Origin: Acidimicrobiia bacterium
GTDB lineage: Bacteria > Actinomycetota > Acidimicrobiia > Spongiisociales > JAHEDJ01
Reading direction: 5' to 3'
DNA length: 48,581 nt
Assembly (NCBI GenBank): GCA_035471805.1
Contig: DATIPS010000017.1
Coordinates: forward strand, 1 to 48,581
Positions 22,612 through 25,586 of this stretch are shown piece by piece. A program made the position numbers and the translations under genes. Below the pieces are notes generated by a model. It was not told the origin of the DNA. It made no database searches and worked only from the letters and a program-made list of their open reading frames with translations. Each line of letters starts with the position of its first letter. Position 1 is the stretch's first letter.

Positions 22612-23426
22612 CCGCGTCGGGTCCCGCCGGGCGCCAGGGGCCGGTCCGTCGCCCGCCGCCCCCGTTCCGCCGGGTGACGGTGAGACGGACGGAATCTCTG
22701 TCGCCGCGGATGGTCCGGGTCACCTTGGGCGGGTCGGAACTCGACGGCCTGGTCGTAGACGAGCCGGGAGCGAGCGTTCGCCTGTTGCTACCTTCGCCGG
22801 GAAAGGGAGAGCTGATCATTCCGGAATGGAACGGCAACGAGTTCCTCCTTCCCGACGGTATTCGGCCGGTGATCAGAACCTTCACGCCGCGGCGCGTTGA
22901 TCCCGTGAACCTCGAACTGGACCTCGACATCGTATTGCACGAAGGTGGAATCGCGTCGGGGTGGGCAGAATCGGCGACGGCGGGTGCCCCCGCCGCGATA
23001 TCCGGTCCCGGCCGTGGCTACGTCCCCGATGAAGAGGCAGAGTCTTTCCTACTCGGCGGCGACGAGAGCGCCATCCCGGCGATCAGTCAGCTGCTCGAGG
23101 CCATCCCGCAACGGACACCGGTCGTAGTGCACATCGAGATCGTCGATCCGGATGCCCGGCTGGCGCTGCCCGACCATCCGAAGGTATCGGTGTCCTGGCA
23201 CCCGGCGGTCACCGGTGGGCGCCCGGGAGATGCTCTCGTCGCGGCAATCGAAGGCACCGGGATCGCTCCGGGAACCCGCATCTGGGTAGCGGGTGAAGCA
23301 GCGGCCGTCCACCGCATTCGTCGCAACCTATTCGAGCAGCGCGGGATCCCCCGCTCGCAGGCAACGGTCCGGGGCTACTGGAAACACACCGGCGACGACG
23401 CCGGCCTTGCTCCGCCTGCTCCGTGA
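22608..23426 (+). CDS. Siderophore-interacting FAD-binding reductase
   Basis: A 272-residue flavoprotein of the siderophore-interacting protein family, which releases iron from ferric siderophores using NAD(P)H. It shows VRRTESLSPRMVRVTLGG (first strand of the FAD barrel), the FAD signature IRPVIRTFTPRRVD, the pyrophosphate loop SGPGRGYVP, LLGGDESAIPAISQLLEAIP and the late GTRIWVAGEAAAVHRIRRNLFEQRGIPRSQATVRGYWKHTGDD block that is diagnostic. ATG 22608 overlaps the acyltransferase stop, so the two are one operon. The probable selenoprotein starts 55 bases downstream on the same strand. Confidence 0.93.
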   Translation: MTASGPAGRQGPVRRPPPPFRRVTVRRTESLSPRMVRVTLGGSELDGLVVDEPGASVRLLLPSPGKGELIIPEWNGNEFLLPDGIRPVIRTFTPRRVDPVNLELDLDIVLHEGGIASGWAESATAGAPAAISGPGRGYVPDEEAESFLLGGDESAIPAISQLLEAIPQRTPVVVHIEIVDPDARLALPDHPKVSVSWHPAVTGGRPGDALVAAIEGTGIAPGTRIWVAGEAAAVHRIRRNLFEQRGIPRSQATVRGYWKHTGDDAGLAPPAP

Positions 23427-23481: not shown

Positions 23482-24027
23482 ATGAAGTTCGACGTCGACG
23501 CCCTAGCTGATCAGCTCCTCGCTGGCCCAGACGGTGACGAGCACCGTCTCGGGGACCTCTGGGCCGAGCATCCCGAGGTGATCCTGTTTCTCCGCCACTT
23601 CGGCTGACTGACTTGTCGGGAGCGGGCCGGTCAGGTCCGTGAGAGATACGACGAGATTCTCGACACCGGTGCGGGTGTCACCGCCATCGGCACCGGCGGT
23701 CGGCGCTACGCCCAGGCTTTCATCGAAGACGAACAGGTTCCGTTCCGTGTCCTGCTCGACGAAGAGGGAACCGCGGCCGAAATAGCGGGCACGAAGAAGC
23801 TGGGAGTCGGAACGATCGTCTCCCCGTCGGCCTGGGCATCGGCGGCGAGGAGCTTCGCCAAGGGACATCGTCAGGGGCGCACGGGCCGCCGGCCGTTTCA
23901 ACTCGGCGCAACGCTCGTCATCGGCCCCGGGAATCAGCTCCTCTACGCCGACTACGAAGACCACGCCGGCGACCATGCCGACATCGACGAGGTGCTGTCG
24001 GCCATCCTCGCGTCAAACGAGGGATAA
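23482..24027 (+). CDS. Peroxiredoxin-like (AhpC-TSA_2 / SelU-like) protein, probable selenoprotein with in-frame UGA at codon 42
   Basis: A 181-residue thioredoxin-fold protein read through an in-frame TGA at 23605-23607. Upstream of it the frame gives FLRHFG; downstream it continues TCRERAGQVRERYDEIL and stays open for 139 codons to TAA at 24025. In this family the motif is FLRHFGCxxCRE, so the UGA sits exactly at the first redox Cys (U-L-T-C). Further landmarks: AIGTGG, AFIEDEQVPFRVLLDEEG, KGHRQGRTGRRPFQLGATLVIGPGNQLLYADYEDHAGDH and the final DEVLSAIL. A hairpin with a GGUCA loop follows the UGA. Homology to SelU/PRXL2-type proteins suggests thiol/peroxide chemistry. A nonsense-mutated gene is the alternative. 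No strong ribosome site is seen at ATG 23482. Confidence 0.85.
23623..23639 (+). promoter_or_regulatory. Candidate bacterial SECIS hairpin
   Basis: CGGGCC (23623-23628) and GGTCCG (23634-23639) form a six-pair stem (one G-U) closed by the loop GGUCA. The loop begins 21 bases after the UGA, inside the 16-37 range reported for bacterial SECIS elements, and starts with G as they do; the GGUC core equals that of the fdhF element. An overlapping alternative stem (CTGAC with GTCAG, starting right after the UGA) could also form. Confidence 0.6.
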
Positions 24028-24194: not shown

Positions 24195-24515
24195 TCACGC
24201 GCCCAGGGCGCGACTCAGAATGCCGAGCCGCGCCGGGATCGGCCGGTAGTAGACCCACCTGCCACGTTTCTCACTCTCGACGAGTCCTGCCGAGCGCAGG
24301 ACTTTCAAATGGTGACTCACAGTGGGTTGGGAAACCCCGAGAGGGTCGACCAGATCACACGCAGCGCAGGCTTCGCCGGTCGCCGCGATCAGGCTGAGCA
24401 GCCTGAGCCTGGTCGGGTCGGCGAGTACACCGAACCATTCGGCAAGCATCCCCGCTTCCTCCGGTGCCAGAGGCTCGTCGAGTAGAGGGGCGCAGCATTC
24501 GATGACGGTTTGCAT
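24195..24515 (-). CDS. ArsR-family metal-responsive repressor
   Basis: A 106-residue winged-helix repressor. WFGVLADPTRLRLLSLIA is the classical ArsR opening, GEACAACDLVDPLGVSQPTVSHHLKVLRSAGLVESEKRGRWVYYRP is the HTH and wing. Cys at CAACDL sits where ArsR/CadC members place metal ligands in helix 3, with a further CC at residues 7-8, pointing to thiol-metal sensing. ATG 24515 has AGGA upstream. It lies 28 bases below the permease gene on the same strand and is presumably its repressor. Confidence 0.92.
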   Translation of the reverse strand: MQTVIECCAPLLDEPLAPEEAGMLAEWFGVLADPTRLRLLSLIAATGEACAACDLVDPLGVSQPTVSHHLKVLRSAGLVESEKRGRWVYYRPIPARLGILSRALGA

Positions 24516-24543
24516 GTCGGGGTCCTTTCGAGTTTGCGCCTAA

Positions 24544-25521
24544 TCAGAGCAGGAGCTGACCGAGCCATCCCATTGCGAGTGCTCCCGCGAACAGTAGTGC
24601 CACCACCAGACCGACTACCCGCTTGCGGGCGATGATGAACAATCCGCTGATCGCCCCCAGGCTGGTGCCGGCTCCGGTGACGAGGAAGGCAAGAGCCGGG
24701 CCGGCCCCCATGCCACCGTCCATCAGAGCAGTCAGCAAGGGCAGCGACGCTTCGGTGCTGAGGTAGGCCGGGATGCCGATCAACGCGGCCAGCGGCACGG
24801 CCAGCAGCGAGTCTCCGCCGAGGTATTCGGTGATCCACTCGGTGGGGATCGCTTCGATGACGAGATATCCGGCGGCCGTGAACCCGAGGAAGAAGATGAG
24901 GAGTTTGCGGCCGACCGTGCGCAACTCGAGGAGCAGTTCATCGAGTTTCCAGCGCCGGCGCAGCGAGGGGAACTCCATTGTGGAGGCTGCCCCCGGTCCG
25001 ATGCTCGCAGCGACCGGTTCCGTGATCGCGCAAGAGCTGGACGTGCAGGCTTCTCCGTCTGCTGCCCGGACGCGGGCCTGGCCCTTCAGCCAACCGGCTT
25101 TGTCGAGGACTGCTGCGACGCCGCCGGAGGCGAAGCCGAGCACGATGGTTCCTGTGAAGAACAGAATCGCGAAGGGCCATCCGAGGAGGCCTGCAGAGAA
25201 AAACAGTTCCGAAGGGCTGGTCAGAGGGGAGGCGACCATGAATGCCACCAGCGGCGCCCACGGTGCCGAACTGGCCAGCATCCCCAACAACACGGCGGTT
25301 GTGCCGCAGGAGCAGAACGGGGTCAGGGTCGCCACCAGCACTGCTCCACCGACCGCGATGGCGGTGCGTCGGCTCAGCATCCGGGAGGCGCGATCGGTAC
25401 CGACGTACACGGAGATCATCGCCGCAGCGATCACGGAGATCGCCAGAAACGGCCACACGCGACCGAGCGTGGTCAAGACATCGCCCAGCACACGTCCTAA
25501 GAGTTCGGGCAACCAGTTCAT
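24544..25521 (-). CDS. ArsP/SO_0444-type metal efflux permease
   Basis: A 325-residue membrane permease of the ArsP_1 family (PF03773). Eight or so helices in two halves; the family motif TPFCSCGTTAVLLGML near residue 67 carries Cys-x-Cys, and the middle cytoplasmic loop holds EACTSSSC, a metal-binding Cys pair typical of SO_0444-type Cu/Zn or arsenical exporters. The second half has the mirrored GIPAYLSTEASLPLL and FLVTGAGTSLGAI segments. Two adjacent ATGs (25524 and 25521) follow AAGGA; the second has better spacing. First gene of an operon with the ArsR repressor. Confidence 0.88.
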   Translation of the reverse strand: MNWLPELLGRVLGDVLTTLGRVWPFLAISVIAAAMISVYVGTDRASRMLSRRTAIAVGGAVLVATLTPFCSCGTTAVLLGMLASSAPWAPLVAFMVASPLTSPSELFFSAGLLGWPFAILFFTGTIVLGFASGGVAAVLDKAGWLKGQARVRAADGEACTSSSCAITEPVAASIGPGAASTMEFPSLRRRWKLDELLLELRTVGRKLLIFFLGFTAAGYLVIEAIPTEWITEYLGGDSLLAVPLAALIGIPAYLSTEASLPLLTALMDGGMGAGPALAFLVTGAGTSLGAISGLFIIARKRVVGLVVALLFAGALAMGWLGQLLL

Positions 25522-25557
25522 CATGACGTCCTTTATATATTGATGGCTATCGATGCG

Positions 25558-25586
25558 ATCATCCCACATATATAGATAGATGTCAA
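25558..25586 (-). promoter_or_regulatory. Promoter of the permease-arsR operon
   Basis: On the minus strand a perfect TTGACA (25586-25581) and GATGAT (25563-25558) are 17 bases apart. The region from 25530 to 25590 is markedly AT-rich for this genome and contains CATAT/ATATG and ATTGAT/ATCGAT half-site pairs around the expected transcription start near 25551, where an ArsR dimer would sit. The operator itself cannot be fixed by eye. Confidence 0.55.

Follow-up and report, generated by a model that had tools for sequence, protein, structure and literature searches.

A peroxiredoxin-like selenoprotein family with a UxxS motif (cd02970/AhpC-TSA_2) is already listed in the literature (PMC13188914 Table 1; PMC9312934), in agreement with the first-pass annotation of this DNA, which had stated that selenocysteine (Sec) is known in related proteins. 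An inventory from 2026, covering 119 families of prokaryotic selenoproteins, contains this cd02970 UxxS family and several UxxC thioredoxin-fold forms, a PF13911/cd02970 form with UxxC is absent from it, and a different Sec motif is treated there as a distinct subfamily (PMC13188914). The bacterial SECIS model of the same work calls for a G within the first two bases of the loop, frequently with G or U next, at 16-37 nt from the UGA (PMC13188914). No literature on selenoproteins in Acidimicrobiia was found in a search outside which subscription journals and database annotation lie, and earlier annotation of single members is possible.

The window, which is the whole stretch of 48,581 nucleotides analysed here, belongs to a genome (G000) of 2.85 Mb that is 97% complete. 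It contains, on the forward strand at 23482-24027, a candidate selenoprotein gene of 181 residues with Sec at residue 42 and a predicted PF13911/PRXL2-like fold. A frame check returned the reading frame described at first pass: ATG at 23482, 41 codons, a TGA at 23605-23607 (codon 42), 139 sense codons and TAA at 24025-24027. The protein around codon 42 reads ...VILFLRHFG-U-LTCRERAGQV..., and past the UGA the protein continues to match PF13911 (about 50 bits). The in-frame UGA, on the forward strand, is the putative Sec codon that opens the UxxC motif, and it is aligned with the Cys of RHFGC homologues, the first of their CxxC, in line with the proposed replacement of the first catalytic Cys. 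The TGT codon at 23614-23616, also on the forward strand, encodes Cys45, the probable resolving partner of Sec42, which is invariant in the subfamily and aligned with C47 of human prostamide/PGF synthase (PGFS). From computation we infer, with a probability of about 0.95, that the gene encodes a functional selenoprotein with actual Sec insertion at this codon. The computed support consists of the conserved UGA, selection on either side of it, a SECIS-like RNA, a complete Sec machinery and the predicted fold, and the U-x-x-C selenoprotein of the first-pass annotation is strongly supported. An annotation ending at the UGA would yield a 41-residue fragment, or the downstream part alone.

A single-protein search of genome contigs gave no relatives; an alignment search recovered them. 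A profile search across the order, which covered 138 genomes, yielded 30 matches above 230 bits, each with a single in-frame TGA and none with Cys. They include family A, to which the gene belongs, with 26 distinct sequences at 27 orthologous places, the signature RHFGUxTCR(E/Q)RAGQV and 60-89% protein identity across the order; the other three matches belong to subfamily B (RHFGUxFCREQ). Exactly one in-frame TGA is present at 27 of 27 places of family A, at the same codon in 26 of 26 distinct sequences, although the sequences are kin and these counts are thus not independent; UGA or Cys had been the alternatives to be checked in relatives, and no place has Cys. The relatives with names are MAGs from Acidimicrobiia and from other Actinomycetota, and no relative was found in the viral contigs and plasmids searched. 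Family A forms a single clade (support 100/100) without a Cys member in the tree, which comprises 87 sequences. The gene would represent a strictly Sec-containing redox enzyme found across an uncultured actinobacterial order.

Once the TGA is translated as an amino acid, the protein matches PF13911 (AhpC-TSA_2) at 49.4 bits, above the gathering cut-off of 27 bits, with further matches to PF00578 (37.5 bits) and PF08534. An AlphaFold2 model built on 22 sequences shows a pLDDT of 85 and a pTM of 0.80, and its top solved structures in Foldseek are human PGFS (9usa, 9us9; E 1.4e-11), followed by PrxQ/BCP and ResA. The alignment to human PGFS is gap-free round the motif and puts U42 opposite C44 and C45 opposite C47; C44 and C47 are mutated in 9usa. 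The most fitting name for the product is a UxxC member of the known PRXL2/AhpC-TSA_2 superfamily. A variant of the selenoprotein reading, in which the product is a true peroxiredoxin of the PrxQ/BCP type whose peroxidatic Sec reduces H2O2 or alkyl peroxides, is unlikely: it agrees with the AhpC-TSA and Redoxin domain matches and with the high position of PrxQ/BCP structures in the fold search, but the PxxxTxxC/U motif is absent, positions -3 and -7 from Sec42 being occupied throughout family A by His39 and Leu35 in place of Thr and Pro, and PGFS is the best match by both fold and sequence. The first-pass term peroxiredoxin-like should not be taken to mean a true peroxiredoxin. As a PRXL2/AhpC-TSA_2 thioredoxin-fold oxidoreductase, the product would have the active site Sec42-x-x-Cys45, in which Sec42 would most likely be the nucleophile attacking a peroxide, endoperoxide or disulfide substrate, Cys45 would resolve the selenenic intermediate as a selenenylsulfide, and a thioredoxin-type donor would then reduce the selenenylsulfide. 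This cycle, with its direction and substrate guessed from homology, is perhaps an even bet.

The gene also has a conserved SECIS-like element, on which the first-pass annotation was silent. The predicted bacterial SECIS hairpin lies at 23622-23640 on the forward strand, with seven pairs (23622-23628 with 23634-23640) and the loop GGUCA (23629-23633). In family A the stem is GCGGGCC/GGUCCGC, and, counted from the base after the UGA, the hairpin starts at 14 nt and the loop at 21 nt; with this loop and distance the hairpin of the gene fits the model of PMC13188914. SelB with Sec-tRNA(Sec) would recognise this hairpin just past the UGA and put selenocysteine at residue 42. When G is required in the first two loop positions, the hairpin scores have a median of 18 in 71 Sec genes vs 9.5 in 20 Cys genes (Mann-Whitney p 1.4e-7, a test that ignores relatedness). 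Codon-based tests, and not the RNA-fold z-score, which is not significant for an 81-nt piece (-1.07), were used as evidence for the hairpin. Against synonymous shuffles, the hairpin is borderline when only the window sequence is considered (p 0.06). Codons 47-54 of family A have a pS of 0.228, compared with 0.648 for codons 56-177. Codons 49-51 (GCC GGT CAG), which coincide with the loop and inner stem of the predicted hairpin, are identical in 26 of 26 sequences, and codon 52 is GTC in 23. The residues of codons 49-51 have two to four codons in use elsewhere, and no other invariant residue of family A shows a single codon except Met, Trp and the UGA; the chance of the GGT column is 3.6e-11 if the sequences, which are kin, are assumed independent. 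Covariation in family A is weak, with one pair changed on both sides, because the stem barely varies, and the stems of three of the 26 sequences (L029, L032 and L062) are imperfect. The class with a distance of 25 nt (21 sequences) shows compensatory changes in five of seven stem pairs and a covariation score of 0.359, higher than all 500 shuffles and every slid control.

The genome G000 contains a tRNA-Sec gene (selC; 75.2 bits, anticodon tca), which ARAGORN also finds as tRNA-Sec, and selA (431 bits) and selB (342 bits), both above the NCBIfam cut-offs, selA lying immediately ahead of selB in the same orientation. Its selD is itself of the Sec type, with an in-frame TGA and the motif SHGSGUACKLG. 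Since selA, selB, selC and selD, whose absence the first-pass annotation had named as the finding that would count against it, are all present in the same genome as the gene at 23482-24027, G000 is equipped to decode Sec. A tRNA-Sec was detected in 100 of the 138 genomes of the order, so its co-occurrence with the gene is uninformative. One well covered genome (G104) has the gene and selA with no tRNA-Sec detected; since selA is present, an assembly gap is likely. Bacterial readthrough products are known, and they count in favour of a UGA read without selenium, either in a reassigned code (as Trp or Gly) or by near-cognate readthrough; this is very improbable next to a SECIS-like hairpin and a full set of sel genes, and homologues outside family A have Cys at the Sec site, not Trp or Gly. 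Code reassignment in particular was rejected, since the SIP gene adjoining the selenoprotein gene stops normally at a TGA at 23426 and UGA is thus not globally reassigned.

Selection was estimated with Nei-Gojobori counts on 325 pairs of family A sequences. The pN/pS of family A is 0.347 in codons 1-41 and 0.356 in codons 43-177 (0.35 before and 0.36 after the UGA), so the constraint to be checked on either side is found on both, and selection is purifying and equal on the two sides. A UGA acting as a real stop, whether by recent nonsense mutation, by misassembly or in a pseudogene under decay, with the part behind it left untranslated, is how the standard code reads it and is compatible with the window sequence alone, but its probability is negligible given a TGA at the same codon in all orthologues of an order-wide subfamily this divergent and a constraint that continues past it, on which pseudogene and assembly error were rejected.

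The selenoprotein gene has further relatives in the wider tree, whose well-supported branches require at least four Sec/Cys changes. Subfamily C (RYFGUxPC) contains L036, L037, L043, L046-L049, L115 and L116, belongs to the same order, and shows an in-frame TGA and, in most members, a hairpin at about 25 nt. L115 and L116, from two genomes of one genus, each carry one Sec gene of subfamily C and one of family A, about 2.3 kb apart on the same strand, at 2192-2692 and 5004-5522 in L115 and at 2221-2724 and 5001-5528 in L116; between the Sec genes lie genes for a small protein and for a large membrane protein, and a transporter-like gene precedes the pair. In L075 (G162:C130:56119-57215) two Sec genes of the family lie in tandem on one strand, and their matches are 53 bases apart. 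L119-L126, from Desulfobacterales and related organisms, show U-x-x-A or U-x-x-S (e.g. RHFGUMFA), without the resolving Cys. Other Sec homologues fit the SECIS model at other distances: the hairpin distance is 16-17 nt in subfamily B and the Desulfobacterales Sec genes, 20 nt in L098-L100 and 25 nt in most other actinobacterial genes and most of subfamily C, where the loop start is AGUU in most. For the same UGA in homologous codons, the hairpins of the superfamily have differing loops and distances (16-17, 20, 21 and 25 nt); that the SECIS was relocated with Sec retained, or that Sec was gained several times independently, is about an even bet. The Cys gene L076, whose codon is TGC, falls inside a group of Sec genes next to L080 (100/98) and is without the SECIS motif, which its Sec sister L080 retains; L076 is likely a Sec-to-Cys conversion. 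The superfamily offers Sec, Cys and shifted-SECIS genes as a natural series in which to study SECIS evolution inside coding sequence.

In the window, genes for a SIP-family flavoprotein and an acyltransferase are located upstream of the selenoprotein gene, and an ArsR-type regulator and an ArsP_1 permease are encoded downstream on the opposite strand. The latter pair occupies 24195-25569 on the reverse strand: the regulator is of the ArsR/SmtB type, and the permease has a PFCSCG motif and stays below the cut-offs of the two efflux families that it matches, SaoE and SO_0444. None of the SIP, acyltransferase, ArsR and permease genes is common to the neighbourhoods of the other genomes examined, and in the nearest relative, L102, a methionine-synthase-like gene directly follows the gene. 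The gene seems to form a cistron of its own. The siderophore flavoprotein noted at first pass does adjoin it; as this flavoprotein is not a conserved neighbour, a siderophore link is unsupported.

Compared with known systems, the gene shares with the listed cd02970 UxxS selenoprotein the PF13911 domain family and Sec at the first motif position, and differs in its UxxC motif with an invariant second Cys, its occurrence in Acidimicrobiia and another SECIS loop distance; the Desulfobacterales homologues probably belong with that UxxS family. The best-matching curated family is the SelL-related redox protein NF040769 of NCBIfam, with a full-length alignment, but the gene scores 88.8 bits, below the cut-off of 120, and is not a member by that rule, whereas the Cys homologue L132 is above it (152 bits). 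Human PGFS (PRXL2B, PDB 9us9/9usa) is the closest solved relative by sequence and fold, although it is a Cys enzyme with about 20% identity whose substrate is not transferable. The Prx-like thiol:disulfide oxidoreductase of PF00578 with UxxC (PMC13188914) is likewise a UxxC thioredoxin-fold selenoprotein, and PF00578 also matches the gene, but PF13911 is the stronger match here, a comparison made by domain scores. By the motif rule of PMC13188914, the UxxC motif of the gene makes it a distinct subfamily, with a mechanism of a known kind.
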